This document shows, piece by piece, positions 723 through 58,059 of a DNA stretch of 60,575 nucleotides. The stretch's first letter is position 1; each line of letters begins with the position of its first letter. The notes under the pieces are model-generated. The model was given only the letters and a program-made list of their open reading frames with translations. It was not told the DNA's origin and ran no database searches. Origin of the DNA: Lentisphaerales bacterium (lineage in GTDB: Bacteria > Verrucomicrobiota > Kiritimatiellia > JAUXFM01). The translations under genes were made by a program, and so were the position numbers. The stretch covers positions 1-60,575 of the forward strand of contig JAUXFM010000003.1 of NCBI GenBank assembly GCA_030622955.1, in the 5' to 3' direction.

Positions 723-2231
723 ATGAAGCGACCGAACATACTGCTCATCACGAGCGATCAGCAACATTGGAACACGCTGGGTTGTTTGAACCCTGAGATC
801 AAGACCCCGAACCTGGACAAGCTGGCTGCACGCGGCACGTTATTCGAGCGCGCCTACACCTGCAATCCCACCTGCACGCCTACCCGCGCGTCCATTATCA
901 CTGGTCAGTACCCAAGCCAACACGGTGCCTGGAGCCTGGGTACGAAGCTGCCAGAAGAAGCACATACTGTCGGCCAGGACTTCCAGAAGGCAGGTTACCG
1001 CACCGCTTTGATCGGCAAGGCACATTTCCAGCAACTCAAGGACACTGCTGAGTACCGCTCAATAGAATCCAACCCATTGCAACAAAATCTGGAGTTCTGG
1101 CGCAACTTCACGGGCCCCTTCTACGGCTTTGAGCGAGCCGAACTGGCGCGGAATCATGCCGACGAACAGCACGTGGGCCAGCATTACGCATTGTGGATGG
1201 AAGAGAAAGGCTTCAAGGACTGGCGCAAGTGCTTCAACAAACCGGGCGGCACAGCCAATCCTCAATATGGGAAATGGAACATTCCAGAGAAGTATCATTA
1301 CGACACATGGATAGCAGAACGCACGAATGCACTTATGACCGAATACAAAGAGAACGATGAACCGTTCTTCCTCTGGTCAAGCTTCCTCGATCCGCATCTA
1401 CCGTATCTCATACCTGACCCATGGGATGAGATGTACGATCCCAGCGAACTAACCCTGCCAAAAGATGCGGAGGGCGAGCACGAAAAGAACCCACCCCACT
1501 TCAAATTGACACAGGAGAAAGACCCGGACTTCTCGCCCTGGCGCGAAAAGGACGGGAGCGGCATGCATGGGTTTGAATCCCACACGAAAGACGAGAAGAC
1601 GAAGCGGCGGGACATGGCTATCTATTACGGAATGGTCAGCTGCATGGACAAGTACATTGGCAAGATCCTCGATAAGCTCGAAGAACTTGGGCTGGCCGAT
1701 AATACCGTTGTAGTGTTCACAACCGATCATGGTCATTTCTTCGGACAGCATGGCCTTACTGCTAAAGGCCCATTCCATTACGAGGATATGATCAAGATCC
1801 CCTATATCGTGAGCTGCCCTGGACAAGTGCCCGAAGGCAAGCGATCAACCGCATTGCAGAGCATCGTCGATCTTGCGCCGACATTCCTCGGTTTTGCGGG
1901 GCTGGATATCCCGCGCACCATGACAGGACTCGATCAGAGCGCTGCCTGGTGCGACAAGGTTGATGCGCCGCGTGATCATGTTGTGGTAGAAAATCATCAT
2001 CAGCCAACAACCATTCACGTAAAAACTTATGTGAACGATCGTTACAAACTGACGGCCTATTACAATCAGCCCTATGGTGAACTGTTCGACTTGCAGGAGG
2101 ATCCTGCCGAGGTGAACAATCTCTGGGACAATCCGGCATCGCAACCACTCAAGGGCGAACTCCTCCTGAAGCTACTCCATGCAGAGATGGGCAAGGAGCC
2201 GATCTGGATGCCTCGTGTCTGCGGCGCCTGA
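723..2231 (+). CDS. Sulfatase, type I (FGly-type Cys motif)
   Basis: 502 aa; 'CTPTRASIITG' matches the sulfatase C-x-P-x-R-x4-TG signature; 'FTTDHGHFFGQHGL'; ATG directly follows the upstream sulfatase TAG. Confidence 0.93.
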   Translation: MKRPNILLITSDQQHWNTLGCLNPEIKTPNLDKLAARGTLFERAYTCNPTCTPTRASIITGQYPSQHGAWSLGTKLPEEAHTVGQDFQKAGYRTALIGKAHFQQLKDTAEYRSIESNPLQQNLEFWRNFTGPFYGFERAELARNHADEQHVGQHYALWMEEKGFKDWRKCFNKPGGTANPQYGKWNIPEKYHYDTWIAERTNALMTEYKENDEPFFLWSSFLDPHLPYLIPDPWDEMYDPSELTLPKDAEGEHEKNPPHFKLTQEKDPDFSPWREKDGSGMHGFESHTKDEKTKRRDMAIYYGMVSCMDKYIGKILDKLEELGLADNTVVVFTTDHGHFFGQHGLTAKGPFHYEDMIKIPYIVSCPGQVPEGKRSTALQSIVDLAPTFLGFAGLDIPRTMTGLDQSAAWCDKVDAPRDHVVVENHHQPTTIHVKTYVNDRYKLTAYYNQPYGELFDLQEDPAEVNNLWDNPASQPLKGELLLKLLHAEMGKEPIWMPRVCGA

Positions 2232-11095: not shown

Positions 11096-11863
11096 TCAAT
11101 GCCCCTCTTCAATCGTACCCACAGTAATACGCAGGTCTTCGCGCCTCTGGATGCGGTCGATCCGGCCGTCGACCAGATAGATGACGCGGTCGGAAACGCT
11201 GAGCATCTTATGGTCATGAGTGGCGGTGATGACCGTTACCCCGAAATCATCCTTGAGCCCGCTGAGCATCTCGATGATTTCTTCGCCCGTCTTAAGGTCG
11301 AGGTTGCCAGTCGGTTCGTCAGCGAGAAGAATTGCCGGATCGTTTGCCAGTGCACGTGCAACGGCAACACGCTGCTGCTGACCACCGGAGAGCTGAGTTG
11401 GCTTATTGAGTAACCTGTGCCCCAGTCCGACCTTCTGCAGGAGATCGGCGGCCTTGTCCTGTGCATCTGCTTCGGGCATGCCCGAGAAAAGCATCGGGAG
11501 CATGACGTTTTCGAGGGCCGACTGCACAGGGATCAGATTGAAGGTTTGGAAAATATAGCCGATCTTGTGACATCTCAGCCATGCGAGCTCGAAGGCATCG
11601 AGCGATGCAATGTCCACTTCATCGATAAAGACCTGTCCGTAATTGGGCTTGTCCAATCCGCCAATCATGTTGAAGAAAGTTGTCTTGCCGGAACCTGACG
11701 GCCCCATGATGGAGATATACTCTCCACGCTTGATGGAGAGCGTACAGCCGCGCAATGCGTGCACTTCTTCACCACCGAGTTTAAAAACCTTCTTAACATC
11801 CACTGCGCGCACCACATTGGCCGCAAGCAAGTGATCATCAGAATTCTTTGCCCTATCGTTCAT
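11096..11863 (-). CDS. ABC transporter ATP-binding protein, LolD/MacB-like
   Basis: 255 aa; Walker A 'GPSGSGKTT'; signature 'LSGGQQQRVAVARAL'; 'ILLADEPTGNLD'; 'ATHDHKM'. Confidence 0.95.
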   Translation of the reverse strand: MNDRAKNSDDHLLAANVVRAVDVKKVFKLGGEEVHALRGCTLSIKRGEYISIMGPSGSGKTTFFNMIGGLDKPNYGQVFIDEVDIASLDAFELAWLRCHKIGYIFQTFNLIPVQSALENVMLPMLFSGMPEADAQDKAADLLQKVGLGHRLLNKPTQLSGGQQQRVAVARALANDPAILLADEPTGNLDLKTGEEIIEMLSGLKDDFGVTVITATHDHKMLSVSDRVIYLVDGRIDRIQRREDLRITVGTIEEGH

Positions 11864-11866
11864 TTG

Positions 11867-12556
11867 TTATACCTCCAAACGCATTGCGCTGATCGGTTCC
11901 ATCCTGGCAGCCAGCCAGGCCGGGTAGAGTGCACCGAACACCGTTAGAAGCGTGCCTGCCAGCAGGCAGATGCCCACACGCTTTATGATTCCAACCACGG
12001 GTACGAGTCCTGTCATCGCCGATCCATAAGTAAGTGATCCTTCGCCCAGCGCGAGTGACAGGCCCATTATGATGCCCAGTGACGTGCCGACCAGTCCCTG
12101 GAACATGCTCTCGAACAGGAATAGCTCAACAACGAGTTTATCGAGTGCCCCCAGGCATTTCATGGTGCCAATTTCGCGGAAACGCTCGGTGACACTCAAG
12201 AGCATGGAGTTAAGGACGCCAACAAAGCTGACAAGCAGCGCCAGCCCGACCATCCAGCGTGTCTGGGTCTTGGCATCTTCGCTGTTGATGGTGAGTTTGC
12301 CGTCACGCTGAAGCTGTTCAATCTGATGCTGATTGGCTTTGCCGGCGATGTTCTTGGCGATTGCATCGGAGCAGAGTATGTAGGACAGAAACGAGATGGC
12401 CAGGATGATCCCGCTGGTGACCAGCAGGGATCGGCCTAGTCGGACGCGGATATTCTGCCAGGCGATCTTTATAGCATTCGAAACAGGAAGCTGCACCTGG
12501 CGCCCGATTTTCTTCCTGTGCCGGTTATCGTCCAGTATTGTGTTTTCTTTATTCAT
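11867..12556 (-). CDS. ABC transporter permease, FtsX-type, with very short extracytoplasmic segment
   Basis: 229 aa; 'AWQNIRVRLGRSLLVTSGIILAISFL'; 'LNSMLLSVTERFREIGTMKCLGAL'; 'GALYPAWLAARMEPISAMR'. Confidence 0.88.
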   Translation of the reverse strand: MNKENTILDDNRHRKKIGRQVQLPVSNAIKIAWQNIRVRLGRSLLVTSGIILAISFLSYILCSDAIAKNIAGKANQHQIEQLQRDGKLTINSEDAKTQTRWMVGLALLVSFVGVLNSMLLSVTERFREIGTMKCLGALDKLVVELFLFESMFQGLVGTSLGIIMGLSLALGEGSLTYGSAMTGLVPVVGIIKRVGICLLAGTLLTVFGALYPAWLAARMEPISAMRLEV

Positions 12557-12927
12557 TTTGCTTTCTTCTTGTCTACTTCTACGGCCACCAGCCCGCGGCC
12601 TATCAGTGTCTTCAAAAAAGTGGTAACGGACAATTCTGCCTCAGCCATCGCGAGGTTATGGTCTACGGCGAAATTCTTGATAATCTCTCGCACCGTGCTC
12701 TTTCCGTTACAGGCTTCATATACTTCCCACCCGTAGGCATCCAACTCAAAACTGACCGTGGCATTCTCGGGCGCACCCAGCACACGCTGCCACTTTGGCC
12801 GTGCCGCAGTGTACGTCAACCTGACTCCGCCTTTTTCGATCTCCTCTTTCTTCGTAACCGGGGCCTGAAAAGGCCGGCTCTGAAAAACCTGTTCGCGCGT
12901 GAGTTTCGGCTTCTTCTGCGCGAACAT
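12553..12927 (-). CDS. PqqD-like (RRE-type fold) protein
   Basis: 'VSFELDAYGWEVYEACNGKSTVREIIKNFAVDHNLAMAEAELSVTTFLKTLIGRGLV' matches the PqqD-like pattern; ATG at 12927 preferred over the TTG used by the ORF caller. Confidence 0.7.
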   Translation of the reverse strand: MFAQKKPKLTREQVFQSRPFQAPVTKKEEIEKGGVRLTYTAARPKWQRVLGAPENATVSFELDAYGWEVYEACNGKSTVREIIKNFAVDHNLAMAEAELSVTTFLKTLIGRGLVAVEVDKKKAK

Positions 12928-12929
12928 CT

Positions 12930-13871
12930 TCAGTTCTGCCCGTTTCTCATTGCCCAATTCATTTCGGCAATAGCCCTGGCGACAATACCTTCAGGTGCCT
13001 CTTTCTTCGCATCGTATTCTGCCATGAAAATGCGATCATCTTCGACGTCATGCACGGCCATCGCAACGCTCGTGCGCGAGGCGATCATGCCCAGTGGCAC
13101 CGGCAGTCTCTTCTTCCCGCATCGACGGATTCCGGAACAGGCATGGCCGTTCCTTTCAATCCTGCAGGGAGCAGGCTTGCCGTTCGTCCTGAATGATCTG
13201 TGTTCCTTGAAAGGTTTCAATTCCTGCCATCGCTCGATGGGGCGCCGGGAAAGAGCCAGTCCTGCGGGATAGACCTGGCGCAACGTTAGCGATTTGCTCT
13301 CTTTCGCATCGAGCTTAATGGTGATATCGCCGAGCTCGAGTTTCCACGTCTTGAGCGTGAAGCCGGCCGGGATCTTGAAGCTTGCACCGAATACGGCAAT
13401 AGGCATTGCTTCATTCGCCCGGAAAGCTTTGAGGGATGGGATGATCCGTTTTTCTATCCATTTGCCGGTCTTGCCATCCTTCATCCTCGCGACAAGTTCA
13501 AGCATGAGTTCGGCTTTCGGGGCGTAGCCATACCACACTGCCCTTGCAGTTCCTTCTTTCCCGGTAAGCCAGGAGCAGTGTCTGAAATCCGTGGCGCTCG
13601 GACAGGATTTCGACAGTGATAGGTTGTTTCGCTTCTCTTTCTTGGTCCGGCGCGCTATGGCGCGGTCGGGCCTGAACCTGCGCGTGTCGGGCCTGATCCA
13701 TTTGACCTGGATGCAGGGCCCATCGGAATTTCCAATGACCATGGTGCCGCGCAGCCATTCTCCCTCGATGCGCAATGGCCGCCAGTCAGCCGGCACGGAT
13801 ACCTGCCAGCCCATCCAGGCAAGCTCGACCCACTCCGTTTTCCCTGCGGTCTCTTTGTGTTTCTTCTCCAT
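12930..13871 (-). CDS. Conserved-looking protein of unknown function with two similar lobes
   Basis: 313 aa ORF between the OPT-like and PqqD-like genes; 'WQVSVPADWRPLRIEGEWLRGTMVIG' and 'ASFKIPAGFTLKTWKLELGDITIKL' look like repeated lobes. Confidence 0.7.
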   Translation of the reverse strand: MEKKHKETAGKTEWVELAWMGWQVSVPADWRPLRIEGEWLRGTMVIGNSDGPCIQVKWIRPDTRRFRPDRAIARRTKKEKRNNLSLSKSCPSATDFRHCSWLTGKEGTARAVWYGYAPKAELMLELVARMKDGKTGKWIEKRIIPSLKAFRANEAMPIAVFGASFKIPAGFTLKTWKLELGDITIKLDAKESKSLTLRQVYPAGLALSRRPIERWQELKPFKEHRSFRTNGKPAPCRIERNGHACSGIRRCGKKRLPVPLGMIASRTSVAMAVHDVEDDRIFMAEYDAKKEAPEGIVARAIAEMNWAMRNGQN

Positions 13872-13934
13872 TTTCCCTATCCAATTCCAAAACTCTGCAT
13901 GCTGCTACTCGCTGTGTTTTTTCGGCTGTTTCAA

Positions 13935-15932
13935 TTACATCGGCAGTTTAATCACGCTCTTAGCCATCAGAACAAAGCCAAGTCCAAGCATCATTGCTAA
14001 CCCCATGCCGGCAGCAAACCCGGCAGCGAAGACGATGCGGTATCTTGGCCAGTTATCGCCGAATTTCTTTTTAAAGACATACCTGCCGAGTAACGCGCCA
14101 ATAAACATCGGGATGATGCCCTGCGGCAGCGACTGGTCCAAGCCCCGGATGATTCCGTAAACCAGGAAGATCGGCAGGTTGAAATGGTTAAGCACCCAGA
14201 ACACGGCCATCGCCATGCCAAACCCTGACAACAACACTGGCAACTTGAATGCCTCACGGAACGGTGCGGCCGCTTCGCCCGGCATCGTTGCAGACCACAG
14301 AAGTCCTTGTTGATATGCGTTCAGTTCCCAGAACTCATTTGCATAAGGAAACATCTCGCTAGGCACATTGCCTATCGACCAGATGAACTGGCTGAAAGCC
14401 ACCATGCCAATAGCCATTATCGGGAACAGAACCAGTTCCGCCTTCATGAGCGAAGTAAACTTGGTCCCCGTAAGCTGCGTGGTCCTGAAGAAGACGGCCT
14501 GTCTCGCATAGTCATGGAACGGGACAGGCGCCACCCAGATCGCTGCGCCCTTGTAGCCCGCGAGGATGAAGGTCGCTTCCCGCATATACGGAATTGGCAG
14601 CTGCCTGCCCACCATGCCTTCCATTCGAGTTGACACGTAACTTATGAAAGGCGTGTAGATGAATCCGTAGAAGACAAGAAGCAGTAGCGGAAATTTCGGG
14701 CCCATGAGCGGACCTGACATATGATTCACGAGGTAATAGGTGAGTCCAATGTAGACCGTTGTTGAGAAGAAATATATTCCCAGCCCGGCCCAAATCGGGA
14801 TATCGCCACGTCCCGCCGGGGGCTTGAAGAGCTTGCCCCATTCCATCTTCGGTTTACCCGCAGCATCCATATCGGCACGTTTCTTCCGGAAGCTGCTGGT
14901 CACATGCCATAGGCCGATGGCCGCAACAGCCAGGCTGAGTCCAATCGTGAAACTGAAATAGAAATCCATCACGTTGGCCTGGATGGTCTTAATCCCGCCA
15001 ATGCCCGGCTCCCAGTTCGTCAGGACACCGGCATGATAGAGAATCGGGTTGAATATCATTGTAAAGATGAGCCCGATGAAACTACCCATCATCGCCCAGA
15101 ACGGCATGACCATACCCGTCACGACAAGGCCCAGGTTGAAGCTGATCATGAACGGCATGGCCGGCATGATTCCTTCCGTGTAGTTCGTAATATCAATGAA
15201 CGGGATCGGTATAATACTCAACGGCTTTGAGAAGATCGCACCTGTGATATTGGGCAATGCCAGGTAGATCATACCGAAGGCGATACCCCCCATCCCGCCA
15301 AAGGCAAACGTACGCCAGCGCCATGTTTCCCGCTGGCTGGACGCATCAGCCAGAGCCGTAATACCCATCGCGCCGACCGGCGCCATGGGGAACGGCAGCC
15401 GCTCAACATCGGACGTGAGTCGGAACATGACGTAGCCCAGTCCAAAATGGTCCAATCGAGTAAGGAATCTCGTGAGAACCATGAGGCCGATAGGCACCAG
15501 CCATTCCGGGATGAAGAAATCCCTCAAGGCCAAGACGTCCGGGTCACGTGGCGCGTACCAGCCGGGAATATACTCGATGATTCCCATCTTGCGGAGTTCT
15601 TCGCTCTGTACAATGAACTGTCGCCAGAGCAGGCCACCCGTAGAGGAGATCACAGCTCCACACATATACGACAAGATGAAAAGCTCGGGTTTCTTGAGTT
15701 TCGTGAAGGCGCGACGACAGATCTCAACATAGAGGATCACTGTGACCCAGCGTGCAGCAGGCCCCATCTGCAGGCCGGCAACAAGCTGCATGTATTTCTG
15801 GGCCGGCGCCATGAAGAGGCCAACGAACACAGCCATGATCACCGTTCGCCAACTGAAGCCCTCCTCGTAGGAATCCGGCTCCGCCATGATATTGCGAAAC
15901 TCTTGAATCTCTTTGTCTTCGCGCATTGCCAT
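13935..15932 (-). CDS. Large polytopic membrane protein, OPT-transporter-like (DUF6784/6785 type)
   Basis: 665 aa with many TM segments; similar in size and pattern to the gene at 21209-23284; family assignment from memory. Confidence 0.75.
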   Translation of the reverse strand: MAMREDKEIQEFRNIMAEPDSYEEGFSWRTVIMAVFVGLFMAPAQKYMQLVAGLQMGPAARWVTVILYVEICRRAFTKLKKPELFILSYMCGAVISSTGGLLWRQFIVQSEELRKMGIIEYIPGWYAPRDPDVLALRDFFIPEWLVPIGLMVLTRFLTRLDHFGLGYVMFRLTSDVERLPFPMAPVGAMGITALADASSQRETWRWRTFAFGGMGGIAFGMIYLALPNITGAIFSKPLSIIPIPFIDITNYTEGIMPAMPFMISFNLGLVVTGMVMPFWAMMGSFIGLIFTMIFNPILYHAGVLTNWEPGIGGIKTIQANVMDFYFSFTIGLSLAVAAIGLWHVTSSFRKKRADMDAAGKPKMEWGKLFKPPAGRGDIPIWAGLGIYFFSTTVYIGLTYYLVNHMSGPLMGPKFPLLLLVFYGFIYTPFISYVSTRMEGMVGRQLPIPYMREATFILAGYKGAAIWVAPVPFHDYARQAVFFRTTQLTGTKFTSLMKAELVLFPIMAIGMVAFSQFIWSIGNVPSEMFPYANEFWELNAYQQGLLWSATMPGEAAAPFREAFKLPVLLSGFGMAMAVFWVLNHFNLPIFLVYGIIRGLDQSLPQGIIPMFIGALLGRYVFKKKFGDNWPRYRIVFAAGFAAGMGLAMMLGLGFVLMAKSVIKLPM

Positions 15933-15938
15933 GTTGTC

Positions 15939-18900
15939 TTATACCTTTGCCAGCAACTCATCGCCCTGTTCGATGAACGCCACGAGGCTCTTGGCCTCAA
16001 GCTTGCGCCATCCCAATAGCTGACGACGCAGATCGCCCAGGAACATCTTATTAAGCCGGCGCCAGCTCGTCAGCTGACCGGATCCGTGTGTGAGTTCGAC
16101 CCTGATCTCGTAAACATCTTCTTCCTCGAGCAGATCTGAAATGGTCAGCCTGAGATTCTGACGCACACCAAAATCGTAAGGTGAGAGCCAGACGGTACTG
16201 GTCACGACAATGGTACGACAACCGTCCTCAACAGCTTCCTTCAACCCGATACTGTCTGCCGTGAAATTGCCGATGTTACCGTCCTTATGCGCATCGAAGA
16301 ACTCGTAAAGAAACGCACCTATACCCGCTGCCGTTCTTGCCGTGGCAGTGAACGGCAGGGCATCCTTTATCATGTAACCGTTTGGAATGACTTCTGGCGC
16401 TGGTACTATCCAGGTCATCTTGTTCGACGGCGTTGCGACTTTGCCCGCCAGGTAGGCAGGGACCAGTGATGATGCGACAACGATCACAAGGACCAGCGAC
16501 ATCGTAATTATCGCCTGGGTGCCACCGAAGTTAAGCGTGATGCCACCCATCCATCCGAGTGCGCTGAACACTTTGGCCAGACCCTGTCCGGCGACATATC
16601 CAAAGATCGATCCGAGCAATCCGTAGGTGATCGCTTCGGCTAGGAACAGAACGCCGACATGGACCGGTGCCAGGCCGAGACTCGTATAGATATAGATTTC
16701 CCGTTCACGTTCGGCAAGCGAACTCAGCATCGTATTGAAGATGATGAATCCTGCGATAAGCAGCGGGATCAGCACGCTCTTGGGCGCCTTGGGTGCGAGT
16801 GGGCGCGCCGCCACAACACGTACCTCCTTGACCCCAGTGTAGTAGATCGGGAACGAGAGCCTGTTCGAGAGCTTCATGGCGAAATTACGCGCCTCTTCTG
16901 CTGAACCCATGGGAATTGCCAGGTTACGTAACGTGCAATCCTTCTTCTCACGGACCATGTCCGCAGGTAGAACGATGATCTTGCTGCTCTCCAGTGCGCG
17001 CACGGAGGAATCTTCTTCTCCCAGCGCGCCTGAGGCCATCTGGATGAATGCCGACTCCGTATCCGAACGAGCCGTCTTGCTACGCTCATCACTGTCCATC
17101 GACGAGTAGTCGGGCGGCAGCATACTGCGTCCATCAAGCCGCATCATCTTTTCATCAAAATCTGTTGAAGAGAATGTTGCGATCAGTTCGATAGCGCTGT
17201 CGCCAACAACAACCATATCGCCAGGCTTAACATCCAGCTCCCTGGCAGTATCTTCGGCGAGGTAGCAGCCGCCATTCTCCGCGAACTTGTCCCAATCAGA
17301 ACAAACGGTTTTTACTGCCGAAACTTCCGATTCAGCCGCGGAAAGGCCGAGGCCGGACATGAGCTGTATCTGCTTCCCAGTTACCGGGTTGCGTACGTTC
17401 AGGCGCCATTCCGTATCGGAATAGACTGACCACCAGTACCGAGGCGCTATCGCGAGATCTTTGCCCGTCGTCGTGCCCAGGGTACGCAGCGCCTGGTCGG
17501 GCATCGGACGGTCGGCTGGCTGGCGGATCAACACAGCATGGTTGTCGAAAGGTTTATTGATGCTGTATTCTTTCTTGCCTTCGTAAGTGCTCGCAGACAT
17601 GAAACAGAGCAGGGAGAAGGTGATCAGGACGATCGTCATGCCTGTCAGGATTGTGCGGAGCTTGCGTTTGCGCATGTTGGCGATCCCGAGTCGCATGGCC
17701 GTAGACAGAAGGCCGAGCCTGGAAGTTTTGGCGCTAATCGACTCGGCCATGCTGCTGCGCATTCTCTCCAGCTCGTTTTCGAACTTGGAGAATATGACCG
17801 AGATGGTCAGAATGCTCATGGAGATGATGCCAAACGCCATCACAATCATGACCGGCAGGCTGCTCATCTTGAAAGCCGGATGAAATGCGAACAGCATTGC
17901 GGCCATTACGGCGAAGATCATGAATCCGCCAAAGATCTGCTTGTAGACATGGCCCGATGCAAAGAGCAGTCGTTCCATGGCGTAGGAGAACGGAATCAGT
18001 GCCAGTAGAAGGAAGATCGCACCGCGGATGACGTCATCGGCTGTTTTCCTGACGGTCTGATAGGCCCGGATCTCATTGGCCAGTGCGGCGGTGGAGGCCC
18101 GGAAGAATTCCCTCCCATCGTTCTTTGCGAGGGCTTCATCTGCGAGTGCCAGTTCCGCCTTGGTCCGTTTCTGGAGTTCTTCAATTGGCTTACTGACAAT
18201 ACCGGCTTTCTTGTAGTCAGATACGCGCCTGGCATCGAGATTATAGAAATCTTGCGCAGCGGCATAGAAAGGATGGGCGCCGATATTTGAGCCCTTGAAG
18301 CCCCGGAGTGTCTGGCGAATGGATTTGCCTTCGGCTTCCTCGCTGGGCATGACATTGGCAAATATCATGCGGTTACCCACAGAACCCGCACGGAGCAGAA
18401 CCTGCCACGATGTATCAGGCTCAACGTAGATGTTGATTATGTCACGGTAGAGATCTGCGTTGATGCGCTTAGGTGGTCCGCGTTTTGCATCCAGGACCGT
18501 CATGTCCGGGAGTTCAGAAAGGAAGCGCGGATCGAAGAAACCGGGGATCGTAACACCCTCACAGGTGAACACGACCCCACGCAGCGCCTCGGGAGCACCT
18601 TCCCGCCTGCGATTCATGGTGAGCTTGACCCCCTTGCCGCCTTCGCTCTTGTTGATTGCCCTCGACACGCGGCCATCTTCCTCGATCGCGTACGCCATCA
18701 TCATCAGGTTGCGCATGCTCCCGTGGCCCGACCCTCCGGAAATACCATCAATGACAAATTGTCCGTCGGGGCCCGTCCTGACGAATTCGAGATGCCGCAA
18801 TCCCGGTACCGGGTTGAGGAAACTCACATATTTCTTGGACTTGTTGGCAGGCACCATGGTTGTTACGTAGCCGGACATGGGGATACGAGCAACAGGTTCT

Positions 18901-21206
18901 CCGGGTGCCTGGTCGGCCACCATGCCCTGTGCCCTGTAAATGCGGGCGGACAACTTGGCATTTTCGACAACGAATTCTGGATCAGAGAAGAGGAGCAGCG
19001 CCATTGCTGCGGTGGCTTCAACCTGGGGTCCAAGCCGATTCCAGTCAAGTTTCTCAATTATATCGTTTGGCGTGTCAACCTTGGATCTGGAGCCGTTAAG
19101 GGTTGCCCAGGTCATGCCCTTGACGCCGAAACTTTTGAGTGATCCGGTCAGGGTACCAACATAGCCCGTGATATGCGAGGATTGTGACGAAAGGCTGTCC
19201 ATAGGGGCCAGGTTGACGCCCAACCGTACGCGGTCAGGAACGAGCGCTTGCCCGGACTTCTCGACCTTCTTGACCCAGGCGGTGAAATCCTTGGCATTGC
19301 TCTTCTCATCGAGGAGCAGAAATGCATCGTAGAAAGCGGGACCTGCTGCAATCCCTGAATCGGAGATATCGAGACCCATCACGAATGAAATGGGCCTTAC
19401 TTCATCCATCTCCCTTGCGATAATGCCGAGCTCCGACGCTAGATCGAGACGGCGTTGATTGTGCTGCTTGTCGATCTCGAAGCGCCTGTCGTTCGCTTCT
19501 TTCTGGCCATTGATACGTGCCAGCATGCGTTGCCAAAGGATCTCAACATCGGTCCTGAATTCGTCGGTGATCGGTTCTTCTTCAATCAACTGTTTCTGCG
19601 TTACTTGGATATGCTGCCTTTTTGCTTCCAGCTTCTTGACTTCCACTCCGAGCTTGGCCTGCTCCTTGAGTAATGGATCCATGACCGAGGCGGGCGCCAC
19701 GGTGCCTCTTTCTTCATGCTTATTTTTAAGTTTGTTGATCTTACGATCGACCCTGCTCTTGGTGAGGCGCAATGGATAGAGCACCGCATCAACTACCAGC
19801 ACTTTCTTCTGGACCTCTTCTTTGACATACCTGTGCAAATCTTTGAAATCGGGGCGACTGACAAGATCCAGGATATCGTCGCTGGCGATGTCGGCATGCT
19901 GAAGGGCAGCATCAGTGAAGCACAGGGGCAGTGCTGCAATGAAGATAGTGAGGGCCGATACGACCGCCACACCGACGCATTTCAGATGTCTGAGGTCGGG
20001 CCCGGTCGTATTTTCGGACCGTTTAACGGTGGAGGGCCTGATCAACCAGACGGCAATGAGTCCAATGACACCTGTCAGGACCAGGATTATGGGAATTGTC
20101 TTTGACCGGGAATCGTCGTCGCAGACGCTCATGCTGGTCTTGAGCCATTGAGCATAGCCCTGGAGTCCGCTGAGGGGCTTCTTCTTTTCCTTGATGAGGC
20201 CGGCCAGTTTTACGTGATTGTCATATTCCTGACGATTCTTGGCATCTGACTTCTGGAGTTGGTCCCGTACTTCCTTTAGCGTCGAATACGAGAGCAACGC
20301 CTGGCGCACACCGAGCTGGTTGATTGCGTAGGCGTCAACAAATGCGAACATGACCGGATGGCGCGGCGGATTCTTTGAGCTGTACTTGATAAGCTCAAGT
20401 GCCAGGGCAGCGTCGACAGCGGCATCAGCGCCTGGCGCCAACTCCGGGACCACGCTCATGGCATCAAAAGGCACCATCACCACTATTGCCTTCTCGCCAC
20501 CCTCGTAGTTTTCAGGTTTCACAAGAGCATATAGGTTCCTAGCCTGGACATCTTCCCATGCCGAACGACAGTAGAGAGTTGCTTCCTCACTTGATGTGCG
20601 GAGGGTCTCTGCCAACGGGCCTGCAGGGACATAGAAGCGAGGAAGGTTGATGGTCACGGGAAGCACGTGTGAGCTGAAATCGATGTGGCGATCATCTTCA
20701 GAGCCCAGGAGTACTACTGCCCTAGCACCTAGCGCAAAAACGGTCTTCCAGTTATGGCCGCCCTTAACGTTCATTACTACGATCTTGTCTCGCAGTTCAC
20801 CAACGGGCAGATCGTCCGGTTCGCCGTTACCAACGTAGATCAGCTTGCCCTTTATCCCTTCGGCAGGAGTCGTGTTCATCCTGACACCTGCGGGCCAGAG
20901 CGGGTAGATACGTTCCCTGTTGGCCCCAAGCTCTATGGTTGCCTTCTTGACCTGGGGCATCATCACGGGGAAGTCGTGCGTCCAGAGTCGCACATTGGGT
21001 AGTTCCGACAGTTCTTTTTCAAGTCGGGCACGGACGGCGGCATGTTCCGGAGAACCGACGATCCTGGAGGACACGCCACCGATCCATTTCGTGCCGGCCT
21101 GCACTCCCTTGAGAATTTCGGGGGTCGCATCATGGGGGGATGCTGACACGGGCGCAGCCGCAAGCAGCAAAGCCGCAATACAACCAGAAACGAGCAGGTT
21201 CTTCAT
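15939..21206 (-). CDS. 1755-aa fusion: signal peptide, PA/M28-peptidase-like domain, coiled coil, extracytoplasmic region, C-terminal FtsX-type permease and cytoplasmic tail
   Basis: Single ORF; 'GSPEHAAVRARLEKELSEL' and 'VMVPFDAMSVVPELAPGADAAVDAALALELIKYSS...VMFAFVDAYAINQLGVRQAL' are M28-like; 'LRTILTGMTIVLITFSLL' and 'FIIFNTMLSSLAEREREIYIYTSLGLAPVHVG' are FtsX-like. Confidence 0.82.
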   Translation of the reverse strand: MKNLLVSGCIAALLLAAAPVSASPHDATPEILKGVQAGTKWIGGVSSRIVGSPEHAAVRARLEKELSELPNVRLWTHDFPVMMPQVKKATIELGANRERIYPLWPAGVRMNTTPAEGIKGKLIYVGNGEPDDLPVGELRDKIVVMNVKGGHNWKTVFALGARAVVLLGSEDDRHIDFSSHVLPVTINLPRFYVPAGPLAETLRTSSEEATLYCRSAWEDVQARNLYALVKPENYEGGEKAIVVMVPFDAMSVVPELAPGADAAVDAALALELIKYSSKNPPRHPVMFAFVDAYAINQLGVRQALLSYSTLKEVRDQLQKSDAKNRQEYDNHVKLAGLIKEKKKPLSGLQGYAQWLKTSMSVCDDDSRSKTIPIILVLTGVIGLIAVWLIRPSTVKRSENTTGPDLRHLKCVGVAVVSALTIFIAALPLCFTDAALQHADIASDDILDLVSRPDFKDLHRYVKEEVQKKVLVVDAVLYPLRLTKSRVDRKINKLKNKHEERGTVAPASVMDPLLKEQAKLGVEVKKLEAKRQHIQVTQKQLIEEEPITDEFRTDVEILWQRMLARINGQKEANDRRFEIDKQHNQRRLDLASELGIIAREMDEVRPISFVMGLDISDSGIAAGPAFYDAFLLLDEKSNAKDFTAWVKKVEKSGQALVPDRVRLGVNLAPMDSLSSQSSHITGYVGTLTGSLKSFGVKGMTWATLNGSRSKVDTPNDIIEKLDWNRLGPQVEATAAMALLLFSDPEFVVENAKLSARIYRAQGMVADQAPGEPVARIPMSGYVTTMVPANKSKKYVSFLNPVPGLRHLEFVRTGPDGQFVIDGISGGSGHGSMRNLMMMAYAIEEDGRVSRAINKSEGGKGVKLTMNRRREGAPEALRGVVFTCEGVTIPGFFDPRFLSELPDMTVLDAKRGPPKRINADLYRDIINIYVEPDTSWQVLLRAGSVGNRMIFANVMPSEEAEGKSIRQTLRGFKGSNIGAHPFYAAAQDFYNLDARRVSDYKKAGIVSKPIEELQKRTKAELALADEALAKNDGREFFRASTAALANEIRAYQTVRKTADDVIRGAIFLLLALIPFSYAMERLLFASGHVYKQIFGGFMIFAVMAAMLFAFHPAFKMSSLPVMIVMAFGIISMSILTISVIFSKFENELERMRSSMAESISAKTSRLGLLSTAMRLGIANMRKRKLRTILTGMTIVLITFSLLCFMSASTYEGKKEYSINKPFDNHAVLIRQPADRPMPDQALRTLGTTTGKDLAIAPRYWWSVYSDTEWRLNVRNPVTGKQIQLMSGLGLSAAESEVSAVKTVCSDWDKFAENGGCYLAEDTARELDVKPGDMVVVGDSAIELIATFSSTDFDEKMMRLDGRSMLPPDYSSMDSDERSKTARSDTESAFIQMASGALGEEDSSVRALESSKIIVLPADMVREKKDCTLRNLAIPMGSAEEARNFAMKLSNRLSFPIYYTGVKEVRVVAARPLAPKAPKSVLIPLLIAGFIIFNTMLSSLAEREREIYIYTSLGLAPVHVGVLFLAEAITYGLLGSIFGYVAGQGLAKVFSALGWMGGITLNFGGTQAIITMSLVLVIVVASSLVPAYLAGKVATPSNKMTWIVPAPEVIPNGYMIKDALPFTATARTAAGIGAFLYEFFDAHKDGNIGNFTADSIGLKEAVEDGCRTIVVTSTVWLSPYDFGVRQNLRLTISDLLEEEDVYEIRVELTHGSGQLTSWRRLNKMFLGDLRRQLLGWRKLEAKSLVAFIEQGDELLAKV

Positions 21207-21208
21207 CG

Positions 21209-23284
21209 TTATAGAATTTCCTTCATAAGGCGCACCATGCCGGGGACCAATCCCCAGAGCACAAGCGCAGAAGCTTCACCAACAATGAGGCCCAGGCAGA
21301 ACGGCGTGAACGTTCTGTAGAGTCTGGAGCCTCCATAACGCAATACCAGCTTCTTTAATGCCCAGCCTATGAAAACACAAACCCAGGTTCTGCCTATCCA
21401 CCAGGTATGCATACAAACCATACCGATAGGATGGATTGGCCATACGGGGAACGACAACGAAAGGAATTGCAAGATAACAGCAAGCCCTACGCCAAATGAC
21501 AGGTGGCCGAGCCTGCTGTAAGGAGCCGTTTGGGGCTGGCCCTTTCCTATAACGTTGTCGATGGTGCCAAGAGACACGTTCCAGTCTTTGAACCAGTAAG
21601 GGTTCAGAGGAGTCTGGTAGCCGTCCATCGTGACACTGTGCTGGTAGTTGCCCTGTACGTGGACTGCACCACAGACAATGAGACTGATAAAAAGAACTGC
21701 CAAAAGGATCCAGCCCAGCCGCCATCGGTGCCGGGGTGTTGATTCTTCGTCAATGGCCATGCCCTGTGCTGCCAGCGCAGCGGGACTGGCAATGGAGGCG
21801 CTGGCGAATATTGTATTGAAGATGCGTTCGTAGTAAATCGCATGTGCGGTCACAGCGGCGGGCGGAAAGAGCCAGACAAGTTGTCCGAGCAATACCGGCA
21901 TGCGGAGGAACGGGACGCCGGATTCTGCAATAACGCGCGTGATTACCAGTGAAACCATGAACGCAAAGCCAACGTAGAGGAGCGCCCAGCCAGGTGTCAT
22001 GCCGACCCAAGCCAGCCAGGCATAGATCCCAACGCAGCCCAGTATGAACATGAGCGCAGCTTTGCGGTAAGTGACGTCTTCCTCGGTTTTCGCCTTTCTG
22101 AAGATCAGTCCGAAAACCCGTTTCCAGTGGGATCTGCCAAGGAACAGGATCACTAGGGAAATTCCAATCATGCCCCCCATACGATGGTTGTCTATGGCAC
22201 CACCGTGATATGGCGGCCAGTATGCCTTGGCCAGCATTTGGTATATGCCATAACTCAGCACGAAAAACCATATCGAAAAGTTAATACGGGTGGGCATGAA
22301 ATAGGCCACACCTATCACCATGAAGAAGAGCATGCTCGATTTGATATAGCCCGGTAGATACGTGTAGGGTATTTCCGTAAAGAATCGACCCAGGTCCCAA
22401 CTGAGGGGTACGGCAGGAACAGCTCCCGGAGAGAAGTGGTTCCATTTGTCAAGACACCGCAGTATGAAGACGGCAATCACTGCTGCCCAGAAGATCTTGT
22501 TGTGGAAGAGCGGCCCGAATTTCTTGCCCGGGCGTGGCGGCGCAACCAGTGATTGCTGCAATGTCAACATGGGGAATGAGAGTCGCTCATTCTTGCGCCA
22601 CTGAGGCAGCACGATCTGGGCAAGTGCAATCATCATCATCCACGAGAAGACGAGCAATACACTCCAGGTCAACGTGGGCACCGCCCATTTCTTCCAGGGG
22701 ATTGGCTGCTTGGGGCCGCCCGGATCCTTCGGATCCAGTGGCGGTAGCTCTTCTATAAAGTAATCGCCGGCAGGTGTTGGTAGCCCGGCGCCCAGCTCAT
22801 CGGGAAACAGGGCATCTGGCGCATGGGGCAACTCGATGTTGAAATTTTCTCTCGCGAACTGGCTGAGGCGTGTCTCATGTCTCACGTAATCCCGGTAGAC
22901 TCGTGAATAGCGGTTATTCTGGTTGGCGTGTTGTGGTGTTCCGGCCATATGGTAGGGCAACCTGCGGAGAAGCCCATCGCCGGGCAACGAGGAAGAGATG
23001 AGCACAATGGCCACAATTACCAGCATCTGCCGGAAGTTCAGCGACATGCGACGATTGATCCAACAGAGCAGCGGGTTAAAAACGAGAACGAAAAACAGGA
23101 TGACGAACATGAAACCGGGCGACAGGTACCCGTCACAAAGATCGGCGGCATAATTATTTGAGTTGATTATGACGTCAATGTAAGGGGTGGCCACCCATAT
23201 GAAGAGTCCGCCGAACAGTCCGAGTAGTATAGCGAAGAAAAAGCGGGTACCAGTCAATTTGCTTGTGCGAACTTCCTTAGTCAT
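21209..23284 (-). CDS. Large polytopic membrane protein, OPT-transporter-like (DUF6784/6785 type)
   Basis: ~691 aa from MTKEVRTS; >10 TM segments; 'RVIAESGVPFLRMPVLLGQLVWLFPPAAVTAH'. Confidence 0.78.
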   Translation of the reverse strand: MTKEVRTSKLTGTRFFFAILLGLFGGLFIWVATPYIDVIINSNNYAADLCDGYLSPGFMFVILFFVLVFNPLLCWINRRMSLNFRQMLVIVAIVLISSSLPGDGLLRRLPYHMAGTPQHANQNNRYSRVYRDYVRHETRLSQFARENFNIELPHAPDALFPDELGAGLPTPAGDYFIEELPPLDPKDPGGPKQPIPWKKWAVPTLTWSVLLVFSWMMMIALAQIVLPQWRKNERLSFPMLTLQQSLVAPPRPGKKFGPLFHNKIFWAAVIAVFILRCLDKWNHFSPGAVPAVPLSWDLGRFFTEIPYTYLPGYIKSSMLFFMVIGVAYFMPTRINFSIWFFVLSYGIYQMLAKAYWPPYHGGAIDNHRMGGMIGISLVILFLGRSHWKRVFGLIFRKAKTEEDVTYRKAALMFILGCVGIYAWLAWVGMTPGWALLYVGFAFMVSLVITRVIAESGVPFLRMPVLLGQLVWLFPPAAVTAHAIYYERIFNTIFASASIASPAALAAQGMAIDEESTPRHRWRLGWILLAVLFISLIVCGAVHVQGNYQHSVTMDGYQTPLNPYWFKDWNVSLGTIDNVIGKGQPQTAPYSRLGHLSFGVGLAVILQFLSLSFPVWPIHPIGMVCMHTWWIGRTWVCVFIGWALKKLVLRYGGSRLYRTFTPFCLGLIVGEASALVLWGLVPGMVRLMKEIL

Positions 23285-23439
23285 GGCCGAAATCGTATCT
23301 CCCGAGTTACCGTAACGAAGCATCATAGAGATACTCTGTTGCAGCCGCAACAAAATCCTGCCAATGCCACCTATTACAGCTATACTATAAGCATAGTGAG
23401 CGCAGAACAGACATTGAGGTGGGAAAGCGGGGGCATTAC

Positions 23440-23982
23440 ATGAAATTCCTCGAATTGGCCAAAAAACGGCGTAGCTTCAGGCACTATTCACCTGAGCCAG
23501 TAACTCGTGAAACCGTGGAGAGATGCCTCGATGCCGCGCGGCTGGCCCCTTCAGCATGCAATTCCCAGCCATGGCGATTCATCGTAGTGGACGAGCCCGG
23601 GCAGAGGCAAAGACTCGCAAATGCCGCATTTTCAGGGATTTACAGCATGAACAGGTTCGCTGGCGAGGCACCAGTTCTCATTGCGATCATTACTGAAAGG
23701 TCCAAACTCGCGGCTAAGCTGGGTGGTCACTTCAGGGGGGTGAAATACAGCCTTATTGATGTTGGTATCGCCTGTGAACACCTCATCCTGCAGGCGGCAG
23801 AGGAAGGCTTGGGAAGCTGCTGGTTAGGTTGGTTCAGTGAGAAACGCGTCAAGAAAGCGTTGGGGCTGCCGCGAGGCACAAAGATCGATGTAATGATCTG
23901 TCTGGGCCGGCCGGCCGAAGGAATTTCCGACAGGGAACCCGTCCGGAAATCCATGGATGAGATCAGGAGATATACTTCCTGA
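23440..23982 (+). CDS. Nitroreductase family protein
   Basis: 'MKFLELAKKRRSFRHYSPEPVTRETVERCLDAARLAPSACNSQPWRFIVV' is the nitroreductase N-terminus; 'LGLPRGTKIDVMICLGRPAE'. Confidence 0.93.
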   Translation: MKFLELAKKRRSFRHYSPEPVTRETVERCLDAARLAPSACNSQPWRFIVVDEPGQRQRLANAAFSGIYSMNRFAGEAPVLIAIITERSKLAAKLGGHFRGVKYSLIDVGIACEHLILQAAEEGLGSCWLGWFSEKRVKKALGLPRGTKIDVMICLGRPAEGISDREPVRKSMDEIRRYTS

Positions 23983-24188
23983 TCCTTCGTCCCTCGCCAA
24001 AAGGTTCTTTTTGGATGATTTTTTTTTGACTTTCCCGTGTATTTTGATATTCGAGAGGCAGTTTCCTGACGGGTACGAGTAGGCCTGTTCAGCGTCCCGG
24101 TAGAATTCGAGGGGATGCGTGCTGACTTCTTGACAAGTCTTCAGCAGGGAACTGAATTTCACGCTCCGCATTCAAAGTGAGGAAGAAT

Positions 24189-24587
24189 ATGGATATAGCA
24201 GTATCGGAAAGACTCAGGTTCACGACGACCCACGAATGGGTGCTTGCTGTGAATGAGAAAACAATTGTAGTGGGTATTACGACCGAACGGCAGGAATGTT
24301 TGTCCGATATCGTACGCATCGAGTTCCCTGATCCGGGCGACCAACTCGAAGCCGGTGATGCAGCGGGTATTCTCGAAGGCGTAAACGACACAACGGATTT
24401 CCTTGCACCAGTGGCTGGCACGGTGACAGAAGTAAATGAGAGACTTGTAACCTCACCAGAACTGGTGAACTTAGATCCCTACGGTGATGGCTGGCTCTTC
24501 AAGATGAAGCCCAAGCGCATGGGTGCCCTTGAGGATTTGATCGAAGAGCACGAGTTTGATCATGTGATGGACGATGATGAAAAGTAG
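24189..24587 (+). CDS. Glycine cleavage H protein-like; lipoyl lysine replaced by asparagine
   Basis: 'TTHEWVLAVNEKTIVVGIT...VRIEFPDPGDQLEAGDAAGILEGVNDTTDFLAPVAGTVTEVNERLVTSPELVNLDPYGDGWLFKMK' aligns ungapped with GcvH except K to N. Confidence 0.9.
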   Translation: MDIAVSERLRFTTTHEWVLAVNEKTIVVGITTERQECLSDIVRIEFPDPGDQLEAGDAAGILEGVNDTTDFLAPVAGTVTEVNERLVTSPELVNLDPYGDGWLFKMKPKRMGALEDLIEEHEFDHVMDDDEK

Positions 24588-30988: not shown

Positions 30989-32443
30989 ATGAGTAAGCAA
31001 CCCAATATTGTCATGTTTCTGGTGGATGATATGGGATGGCAGGATACATCTGAGCCATTCTGGACAGAACCTACACCGTTTAATGAGCGCTACCGAACAC
31101 CGAATATGGAGCGACTTGCGCGATCGGGGGTGAAGTTCACTCAGGCCTATGCCTGTTCCGTGTGTTCGCCCAGTCGTGTGAGCCTCATAACGGGGTTGAA
31201 TGCCGCACGCCATCGTGTGACCAACTGGACGTTTGCAAAAAACGAGGCCAAGGATTCGGAATCGGACGAGCTCATCTTTCCGGACTGGAATGTCAATGGG
31301 ATCACGCCGTCGCCCGATGGCGAGCGTGCAGTTCATGCCAAATGTCTGCCGGAGTTCTTGCGGGACGTTGGCTATCGGACGATCCACGTCGGCAAAGCAC
31401 ATTTAGGCGCTTTCGACACGCCGGGCGCCGATCCGAAGAACCTGGGCTTTGACGTCAATATTGCTGGGCACGCGGCAGGCGGACCGGGCAGCTATCTGAG
31501 CGAGCAGGGCTTCGGTGCCGATTGGCGTGGCGGGGACAATCATTGGACTGTGCCCGGACTGGAAGCATATCATGATTCGGGCACGTTTCTGACAGAGGTG
31601 TTGACACTTGAAGCCAACAAGGAAGTGGATCGCTCCGTAGCTGAGGGCAAACCGTTCTTTCTCCATATGTCGCACTATGCCGTGCATGTTCCCTTTGCCG
31701 AGGATCCGCGCTTCATCGACAATTACGGAGATCTTCCAGAGCAAGAAGCGATGTATGCCGCATTGGTCGAAGGCATGGATAAGAGCCTGGGTGATATCCT
31801 GGACCGTATTGACAAGCTTGGAATTGCGGACCAAACGATCGTGATCTTCATGTCCGACAACGGCGGGCTCAGTGCACATGGCCGTGACGGGGAAGCGCAC
31901 ACGCACAACAAGCCTTTGTCGAGCGGAAAAGGGTCGGCGCATGAAGGCGGCATCAGAGAGCCCATGATTGTGCGATGGCCGGGGGTGACCCGGGCCGATT
32001 CAACCTGCGATGAATACGTGATGATTGAGGATTTCTTTGTTTCCATACTGGAAATGGCGGGGATACAGAATCCGGAACAGATCGGCGGGGTGCTGGATGG
32101 ACGCAGCTTCGTGCCGCTGTTACACGGTCAAAGCGGTGTTTCCACGGGACGTGCCCTGTTCTGGCACTATCCCAACAAATGGGGTTCTGATGGGCCCGGT
32201 ATCGGCAGCACCAGCGCCATACGCAAGGATGACTGGAAATTGATCTACTATCATGAACCCAGTGCCGCAAGTCAGTTCGAGCTGTTTAACATTTCGGAAG
32301 ACATTGGCGAGACGACCAACCTCGCCGCGTGCGAAGCGGACCGCGTAGCGGCACTGCGAAAAGAACTGCGTGAGTTCCTGATAGATTGCGATGCTCAGAT
32401 GCCCGTGGATAAACGCACAGGCAAAGTGGTGGCACTTCCCTAA
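30989..32443 (+). CDS. Sulfatase, type I (FGly-type Cys motif)
   Basis: 484 aa; 'NIVMFLVDDMGWQD', 'CSPSRVSLITG', 'FMSDNGGLSAHG', 'GSAHEGGIREPMIVRWPG'. Confidence 0.95.
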   Translation: MSKQPNIVMFLVDDMGWQDTSEPFWTEPTPFNERYRTPNMERLARSGVKFTQAYACSVCSPSRVSLITGLNAARHRVTNWTFAKNEAKDSESDELIFPDWNVNGITPSPDGERAVHAKCLPEFLRDVGYRTIHVGKAHLGAFDTPGADPKNLGFDVNIAGHAAGGPGSYLSEQGFGADWRGGDNHWTVPGLEAYHDSGTFLTEVLTLEANKEVDRSVAEGKPFFLHMSHYAVHVPFAEDPRFIDNYGDLPEQEAMYAALVEGMDKSLGDILDRIDKLGIADQTIVIFMSDNGGLSAHGRDGEAHTHNKPLSSGKGSAHEGGIREPMIVRWPGVTRADSTCDEYVMIEDFFVSILEMAGIQNPEQIGGVLDGRSFVPLLHGQSGVSTGRALFWHYPNKWGSDGPGIGSTSAIRKDDWKLIYYHEPSAASQFELFNISEDIGETTNLAACEADRVAALRKELREFLIDCDAQMPVDKRTGKVVALP

Positions 32444-33377: not shown

Positions 33378-34568
33378 TTATTTGTCGAATCCATCGATTG
33401 TCTTTGTGACATGGTCAATCAGGGGATGGTTAGCGTATTTCTGCCCCTCCACAGGAGGGATATAGTCGTAGTGAAACTCCCACCAGAACACTCCACGATA
33501 TTGTTTTGTGAATACCCATTCAAGCTTACGACTGAGGCTTCGAGTGTTGTCGATTGTCACAAATGTGGTCTTGTCGGGACTGGAATAATAGGGGGCCTCA
33601 GCTTTGGCATCGTACGATTCCTGCCATCCGTCCTTCAGCAACATCGGCAGTTCAGTATACGAGAAGTAGCGTCCTATCTTCTTTAGAGGTATTTCACTTT
33701 TCTGCCCTGGAGATATCCCTTTGTAGTAAAAACCATAGTTAGCCAGACCTATGCAGATCTTATCCGGAGAGAATGCAGTCCACTTGTTCCGCAATATGGT
33801 TTTCATTCTGTTTAGGGGTGTGTTGTGGGTTGCTTTAGCGCCCCAGAGTCCTCCGCCCATATCGTATGTCATCATATTTAACCAGTCTATGTGCTGACTC
33901 AGTTGCCGCGCTTGCGTTCGCGAGTAATTTCTCTTCGAATGATGAAGTGCCGTGGTCAAGTAATACTTGCGTGATGACGATCCAGCGTCCCGGTTTAAAG
34001 AACTTAGCGCTTTGCGTAAATCTGCCATGAGCGCGGTGTGCTGGCCTATGCTAAAGGCGCCCTCCCAATCGATTTCAATTCCGTCATAGTTATACTTCTT
34101 CACGAAAGCAGTCATCACCTTGGCAAACAAAGCTCTCTTCTTGCTATCTCTGGCTATAGGATTGAATTGTGTCCTGCCAGGAATGGAGAGTAGTACGTTG
34201 ACGTGTTTTTTATGAGCACGAGAAATGAGTTCAGGCACAAGGGCAACACCGGAGTCTCCTGCTGGGTATGAGTGGTGTTGAACCAGTTTACCCATGATAT
34301 CATTTTCGGACATGTTGAAATCTTCAGGTTTCCAAGCTGGTGCCGCCATGACATACATGAAATTGAACTGTTCAAACCGTGTTTGATCCAGTTGCGCTAT
34401 ATTCTTGATCCTGTTGCCTACAAGGTAGGTGGCATGTACAAAAGCCTTTTTGCTATCGTTTTGCATTTTCGAAGCCTCCTTGTGTGGTAACTCATCAGCT
34501 ATTAGATTTGATACACCAATAAGGGAAGCGGAACAAATTGTTGTCAGCATGAGGATTAATATTTTCAC
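33378..34568 (-). CDS. Glycoside hydrolase family 18 (chitinase-like), secreted
   Basis: 396 aa; signal peptide; catalytic motif 'YDGIEIDWE'; 'INMMTYDMGG'-like 'LNMMTYDMGGGLWG'. Confidence 0.9.
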   Translation of the reverse strand: MKILILMLTTICSASLIGVSNLIADELPHKEASKMQNDSKKAFVHATYLVGNRIKNIAQLDQTRFEQFNFMYVMAAPAWKPEDFNMSENDIMGKLVQHHSYPAGDSGVALVPELISRAHKKHVNVLLSIPGRTQFNPIARDSKKRALFAKVMTAFVKKYNYDGIEIDWEGAFSIGQHTALMADLRKALSSLNRDAGSSSRKYYLTTALHHSKRNYSRTQARQLSQHIDWLNMMTYDMGGGLWGAKATHNTPLNRMKTILRNKWTAFSPDKICIGLANYGFYYKGISPGQKSEIPLKKIGRYFSYTELPMLLKDGWQESYDAKAEAPYYSSPDKTTFVTIDNTRSLSRKLEWVFTKQYRGVFWWEFHYDYIPPVEGQKYANHPLIDHVTKTIDGFDK

Positions 34569-50802: not shown

Positions 50803-50872
50803 CGCATCTCTCCCTCATGAAGACTGGGCTAAGAGTAAATCAAGTGCTTTGATTTGTCAAGAATCAGGGAAG

Positions 50873-51793: not shown

Positions 51794-51804
51794 GATTCGA
51801 TATC

Positions 51805-54428: not shown

Positions 54429-54436
54429 ACTACAAT

Positions 54437-55273: not shown

Positions 55274-55307
55274 TCTTTGCTGTCTCCTTGTGCCTGTTCT
55301 GGTGATG

Positions 55308-58035: not shown

Positions 58036-58059
58036 TCCTGCCTGTTGCTCCTTGACCTT

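Follow-up and report, generated by a model that had tools for sequence, protein, structure and literature searches.

A conserved seven-gene system with a predicted type VII ABC core and a pseudo-M28 fusion protein in a Lentisphaerales bacterium

Seven adjacent genes of a Lentisphaerales bacterium were investigated, and the comparison across genomes supports that they form one conserved system, apparently undescribed so far, whose cargo is probably not a peptide but a molecule that contains sugar. They lie in a stretch of 60,575 nucleotides (contig JAUXFM010000003.1 of assembly GCA_030622955.1, positions 1 to 60,575 of the forward strand), referred to as the window in its full length. As the initial annotation had reported, the seven open reading frames (11096–23284) are co-directional on the minus strand and closely packed, with gaps of 2–63 bp and one 4-nt overlap. 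In the direction of transcription they are:

21209–23284, minus strand: D6785, a polytopic membrane protein of 691 aa (DUF6785 plus DUF6784), the first gene of the operon
15939–21206, minus strand: the giant protein, 1755 aa, a pseudo-M28 ectodomain fused to an FtsX/MacB-type permease
13935–15932, minus strand: OPT-family transporter, 665 aa (Pfam OPT, 1.5e-6)
12930–13871, minus strand: LOB, a soluble two-lobed protein of 313 aa with two Mog1/PsbP-fold lobes
12553–12927, minus strand: PqqD/RRE-like protein, 124 aa from ATG 12927 (Pfam PqqD, 1.7e-7)
11867–12556, minus strand: minimal FtsX-type permease, 229 aa (Pfam FtsX, 2.8e-15)
11096–11863, minus strand: LolD/MacB-class ABC ATPase, 255 aa (ABC_tran, 8.8e-33)

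The junctions measure 2 bp (D6785/giant), 6 bp (giant/OPT), 63 bp (OPT/LOB) and 3 bp (FtsX/ATPase), and PqqD and FtsX share the 4-nt overlap. The start of PqqD is best placed at ATG 12927, 2 bp from LOB; TTG 12957 would give a 28-nt overlap. D6785 most plausibly starts at ATG 23284, and its homologue in the closest relative (L077) was also called at 691 aa.

The distribution of the gene set was investigated from two directions. A search with the giant protein over 57 genomes of the host's class returned homologues of equal length in many families, and regions of up to 20 kb fetched around them held the same partner genes in changed order. The single giant sequence gave no match among species-representative contigs; when aligned OPT sequences served as query instead, 561 confirmed stretches were obtained, and the best 80 of them were taken. 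These were ranked by OPT similarity and genome sampling was partial, so the phyla represented are a lower bound: Lentisphaerae, Kiritimatiellota, Verrucomicrobia, Phycisphaerae, other Planctomycetes, Sumerlaeota and many Desulfobacterota. Isolates among the best 80 included Desulfopila sp. IMCC35008, Desulfatibacillum alkenivorans DSM 16219, Desulfacinum hydrothermale DSM 13146, Desulfogranum marinum DSM 2058 and Desulfoferrobacter suflitae. At an E value of 1e-40 or below, the giant protein occurred in 17 of 145 genomes of the host phylum, 8 of 118 Desulfobacterota and 21 of 149 genomes of the phylum of L096, and some genomes, including those of the Planctomycetes–Verrucomicrobia–Chlamydiae (PVC) group, carried several copies of the system.

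Loci were counted where a complete giant gene was flanked by no less than 2.5 kb on either side, which left 43 loci outside Desulfobacterota and 35 inside. Near the giant gene we found OPT (43/43 outside, 33/35 inside), DUF6785 (34/43 and 34/35), FtsX (36/43 and 34/35) and the ATPase (35/43 and 35/35), as well as PqqD (at least 28/43 and at least 17/35) and LOB (at least 24/43 and at least 16/35), the last two being lower bounds because these genes often lay beyond the fetched stretch or were too diverged. The OPT counts are biased for L077–L156, where OPT was the probe, and unbiased for L039–L075 and L206–L222, which were found by the giant protein alone. The set was complete or largely so in most of the 78 evaluable loci. 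Conservation of at least five of the seven genes beyond close relatives had been proposed as the mark of a true system; such synteny extends across phyla, and at least five of the other six genes lay beside the giant gene in 27 of the 43 loci outside Desulfobacterota. In L039/L086 and L077 the order of all seven is identical, and otherwise it varies between lineages; in Desulfobacterota it is usually FtsX, ATPase, giant, DUF6785, OPT, a secreted protein of ~205 aa, LOB and PqqD. For giant, OPT, D6785 and FtsX the distance matrices were correlated over 61 loci (r = 0.88–0.98, species kinship uncorrected). Because the set persists across phyla despite its rearranged order, with correlated divergence, the seven genes are supported as one system. 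No mention of DUF6785/6784 or of this gene set was found in the open-access literature searched, in keeping with the initial annotation, to which no characterized system of this composition was known.

Several lineage-specific features accompany these loci. The ~205-aa protein between OPT and LOB has an apparent secretion signal, is always co-directional and occurs in 24 loci (L103, L108, L118, L120, L124 and others); it matched no Pfam or NCBIfam family and is a probable eighth component in Desulfobacterota. Downstream of PqqD in L110, L124, L136, L144, L148, L151 and L154, mostly on the opposite strand, there are genes that read as STAS-like, serine-kinase-like and phosphatase-like regulators, and an 843-aa ABC protein (PF00664 plus PF00005) recurs with them beside the Desulfobacterota operon. 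Loci L040–L060 (type A) represent a second lineage, in which the permease is full-length (~490 aa) and there are usually two genes for the ATPase.

Judged by its domains, the centre of the system, consisting of the ATPase, the small FtsX permease and the C-terminal half of the giant protein, is an ATP-binding cassette (ABC) core of the MacB/LolC class (type VII). The ATPase carries Walker A, the LSGGQ signature and the H-switch, and its NCBIfam scores were best for LolD (6.5e-65), followed by YbbA (5e-62), MacB (3e-60) and FtsE (4e-59). PF02687 was present in both permeases, so that the two hallmarks of type VII transporters, a MacB/LolD-clade ATPase and an FtsX-fold permease, occur together here, as the initial annotation had proposed in its FtsX-type ABC machine; its identification of the LolD-like ATPase, FtsX, PqqD, OPT and the FtsX part of the giant protein agrees with Pfam and NCBIfam. 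By hydropathy the 229-aa permease has four transmembrane (TM) segments and no large periplasmic domain, with ~43 aa between TM1 and TM2 against ~270 aa in the giant protein; in many relatives the corresponding permease has ~490 aa. The MacB-type permease fold is shared with MacAB-TolC, whereas the operon has no gene for a MacA-type adaptor or TolC. A MacAB-type pump was rejected, as no MacA-type adaptor, membrane fusion protein (MFP) or resistance-nodulation-division (RND) subunit was present among the 33 window proteins scanned.

The giant protein has a single Pfam match (FtsX at residues 1480–1588, 2.2e-11) and can be divided as follows:

20187–21137, minus strand: residues ~24–340, PA domain plus the first half of an M28 fold that has lost its zinc ligands
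19401–20186, minus strand: residues ~341–602, insertion in the M28 fold with two hydrophobic helices and long helical hairpins
18972–19400, minus strand: residues ~603–745, second half of the M28 fold with a TPxD motif, lacking the zinc His
16407–17669, minus strand: residues ~1180–1600, FtsX/MacB-type permease (one TM segment, ~270 aa, three TM segments)
15942–16406, minus strand: residues ~1601–1755, conserved C-terminal domain of ~155 residues with no known fold assigned

An AlphaFold2 model of the N-terminal 1165 residues reached a predicted local distance difference test (pLDDT) score of 85 and a predicted TM-score (pTM) of 0.82; pLDDT was mostly above 90 in residues ~24–340 and low at 362–450, the region of the insertion helices (371–389 and 410–428 by hydropathy). 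The ectodomain matched YwaD-type aminopeptidases (PDB 2ek8) by profile (hmmsearch, E=2.6e-19) and, in agreement, by structure (Foldseek, 1e-14); further profile matches were the transferrin receptor, nicastrin (7e-10) and nicalin (1.6e-7). The fold is split, and its last segment, with TPxD (T712, P713, D715), lies C-terminal to the insertion. This second domain also aligns to M28 enzymes, and its ligand columns were checked at 711–715. In nearly all 81 giant homologues both zinc His and the catalytic Glu pair were replaced; the Asp ligand was retained mainly in Desulfobacterota, and the Asp of HxD, which is not a ligand, was retained. The M28-like domain of the initial annotation therefore holds as a fold, PA domain included, whereas the His, Asp, Glu, His set of zinc ligands of M28 metallopeptidases is lost. 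Since the ligands and the Glu pair are replaced across homologues, the ectodomain is predicted to be a catalytically dead pseudopeptidase, and peptidase activity was rejected. Nicastrin and nicalin likewise carry a non-catalytic M28 fold in eukaryotic membrane complexes; here the protein is bacterial, is fused to an ABC permease, would belong to a putative complex and has its M28 fold interrupted by ~260 residues with hydrophobic helices. The permease part matched YtrF, MacB, LolC and LolF in the PDB profiles and has TM segments at 1185, 1477, 1504 and 1565 by hydropathy, with the ~270 aa lying between the first two. In the C-terminal domain P1676, D1678, G1710, W1715 and W1733 are invariant; it was considered as a further Mog1-like lobe, which was rejected as it is unrelated to the lobes of LOB.

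Two further membrane proteins had both been called OPT-like. For the 665-aa protein this is borne out, although just above the curated cut-off of PF03169 (27.7 versus 25.8 bits); D6785 (Pfam DUF6785, 1.3e-72; DUF6784, 7.1e-23) resembles the OPT family by profile-profile comparison only (hhalign, E=1.1e-4, probability 57%), in a common region around the motif DVERLPFP / NERLSFP, and appears to be a remote OPT relative. D6785 is present in a single copy in the host genome and absent from 14 control genomes. The 665-aa protein is the best conserved component; in an alignment of 27 sequences the members share 36–63% identity with the first one. No solved relative was detectable by sequence. Compared with OPT transporters of oligopeptides and metal chelates, the pair differs in being constantly accompanied by an ABC core. 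LOB matched no Pfam or NCBIfam family, and its two lobes, already noticed in the initial annotation, turned out to repeat the same fold in tandem (hhalign, E=0.0012). LOB and PqqD are fused in L052, L058 and L090. In an AlphaFold2 model of the natural L090 fusion the LOB part mostly had a pLDDT above 90; its lobes matched PsbP, Mog1, LpqN and also DcrB-like folds (Foldseek, best E=9e-4), and the PqqD part matched the leader-peptide-binding domain of TbiB1 (Foldseek, probability 1.00, E=0.03). By hydropathy neither protein of the window has a hydrophobic segment, and thus both are probably cytosolic.

An indication of the cargo came from Desulfobacterota. There the operon follows a co-directional run of genes (GT28-like, GT4, GT4, histidine phosphatase, GT28-like, polysaccharide deacetylase, then FtsX), in several loci with gaps of 1 to ~170 bp. 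For the first glycosyltransferase, the eight best genomes (E<=1.2e-80) of 118 Desulfobacterota were exactly the eight with the giant protein; weaker matches occurred in five further Desulfobacterota genomes, all lacking it. The coincidence extends to four of the eight in which the glycosyltransferase and giant genes are not adjacent, being ~466 kb (G291), ~64 kb (G258) and ~21 kb (G273) apart or on different contigs (G212). Linkage to a glycosyltransferase is thus seen in Desulfobacterota both by neighborhood and by co-occurrence, and our best guess from this genomic context is that the cargo there is a glycoconjugate, either a glycolipid or an oligosaccharide, made by the neighboring glycosyltransferase/deacetylase cluster. 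In a Phycisphaerales locus (L097:1–4936) genes that read as KdsD-, KdsC- and LptC-like lead directly up to the gene of the giant protein and overlap it by 4 nt; this link was seen in L097 only and is not general.

Several observations weigh against a glycan cargo shared by all lineages, or against the joint machine proposed below. The hypergeometric value for the co-occurrence (1.4e-12) ignores shared ancestry and is overstated. No OPT gene was found beside the giant gene in G291 and G258. Because the glycosyltransferase is absent from the 57 genomes of the window's class, this evidence is not directly transferable to the window organism, and linkage to glycan genes may be peculiar to Desulfobacterota. 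The genes adjoining the operon in the window encode nitroreductase, GcvH-like and CsgG-like proteins, none of which is a glycan gene. OPT proteins and PqqD/RRE domains, moreover, are best known for peptides.

Considering these known roles, peptide handling has to be weighed, as the initial annotation had favored a peptide or lipoprotein function. A RiPP-like (ribosomally synthesized and post-translationally modified peptide) or scavenged peptide would be bound by PqqD, carried by the OPT proteins, held by the M28-like domain and released by the ABC core. The PqqD fold with its TbiB1 match, the OPT fold and the M28/PA fold all accord with this. However, the zinc ligands are lost, gaps of at most 63 bp leave no space for a precursor gene within the operon, and the 493-bp gap downstream holds only short, unsupported open reading frames as candidate precursor genes. 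No RiPP enzyme, radical S-adenosylmethionine (SAM) gene, protease or precursor gene adjoins the operon, and PqqD is partnered here by a double Mog1/PsbP-fold protein. Contrary to the initial annotation, which had correctly excluded MFP and RND subunits, the window does contain a radical SAM gene (37962–38894), but it lies 14 kb off on the opposite strand, beside metallophosphoesterase and SecA genes, and is hardly an operon partner. A RiPP cluster was rejected on these grounds. The conserved glycosyltransferase, deacetylase and phosphatase genes ahead of the Desulfobacterota operon weaken the peptide reading further, and we regard it as unlikely.

Instead, we give about an even chance to the view that the seven products form one inner-membrane machine that mechanically handles a glycoconjugate at the inner membrane. 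In type VII ABC systems cytosolic ATP drives work in the periplasm with no passage of substrate through the transporter (PMC5985334), and for YbbAP a role has been proposed in pulling out hydrophobic molecules and offering them to the hydrolase TesA (PMC12646458). By analogy, the ATPase would power long-range movements (mechanotransmission), and the pseudopeptidase ectodomain, worked by these movements, could act as a periplasmic clamp that binds or receives a substrate lifted out of the inner membrane, as by LolCDE and YbbAP. The OPT pair may serve as a membrane conduit that brings or removes the substrate of the clamp, and LOB with PqqD as a cytosolic docking or gating adaptor. In PVC bacteria the cargo would probably be a related but different glycan-type molecule. 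YbbAP-TesA of Escherichia coli (PMC12646458) resembles this arrangement in its LolD/YbbA-class ATPase, FtsX-type permease and periplasmic partner of hydrolase fold that receives the extracted substrate; TesA is active, however, whereas here a dead M28 domain is fused to the permease, and two OPT-type membrane proteins and the PqqD/Mog1-fold pair are added.

A sugar cargo could also travel inward. The system might be a glycan importer, or a relay from outer to inner membrane, in PVC polysaccharide degraders, and its Desulfobacterota version would then have been recruited to a locus for biosynthesis. The presence of several copies in a PVC genome would suit this, as would the several PVC copies that adjoin genes for glycoside hydrolases (GH42, GH38, GH127), sulfatase, arabinose isomerase, pectinesterase and sialate esterase, and the two sulfatases and GH18 protein within the window (723–2231, 30989–32443 and 33378–34568), because of which the host itself looks like a polysaccharide degrader. 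These neighbors were hand-picked and mostly lie on the opposite strand, though, and 3 of 10 control proteins were carbohydrate-related, a background so high that the enrichment is suggestive and was not relied on. No type VII ABC core is known to us to act as an importer, and we consider uptake distinctly unlikely.

Lipoprotein sorting of a LolCDE-like kind, specific to these phyla, seems improbable as well. By profile, the ATPase and the permeases come closest to the LolCDE/LolDF families, the permeases matching LolC, LolE and LolF, but all scores fell below the NCBIfam equivalog cut-offs (LolD 218.7 versus 307.75 bits; LolCE 44.9 versus 362.45 bits), the permeases have 229 and 1755 aa, and a separate, better LolCE-like permease is encoded elsewhere in the host genome (C114/C85). 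Lipoprotein sorting is expected to be near-universal, whereas this system occurs in 7–14% of the sampled genomes of three phyla, with multiple copies in some. Finally, that an ABC core and OPT transporters are merely co-transcribed neighbors with no common complex or function is very improbable: gene order does vary between lineages and D6785, LOB or PqqD is missing from some loci, but the set persists across phyla despite reordering, with correlated divergence.

Elsewhere in the window, a stand-alone GcvH-like protein is encoded beside the nitroreductase (23419–24587), divergently from the operon, and a Tad/Flp-pilus-like cluster (48125–58686) encodes a T2SSE ATPase with a fused FHA domain (52686–54428), T2SSF, RcpC/CpaB and TadE/G-like proteins as well as PEGA-repeat and FHA proteins. 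No Rfam element was found in the window, promoter and terminator scans gave signals at chance level, and a viral fold search returned no match.

Thus, a multi-gene envelope system has been kept together in at least four phyla, including cultured sulfate reducers. We tentatively suggest, with rather less than even confidence, that it represents a new class of envelope machine in which a type VII core, a nicastrin/nicalin-like clamp, a heteromeric OPT-type pair and a PqqD/Mog1-fold adaptor join in one complex, whose task would be the extraction or transfer of a lipid-linked glycan across the envelope of PVC and sulfate-reducing bacteria. The pseudo-M28 ectodomain would be a bacterial counterpart of nicastrin and nicalin. 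If the OPT-type proteins do work with the type VII core, a family of secondary transporters would be coupled to mechanical ABC work, of which we know no earlier case, and the glycosyltransferase link makes the question of the substrate directly testable.

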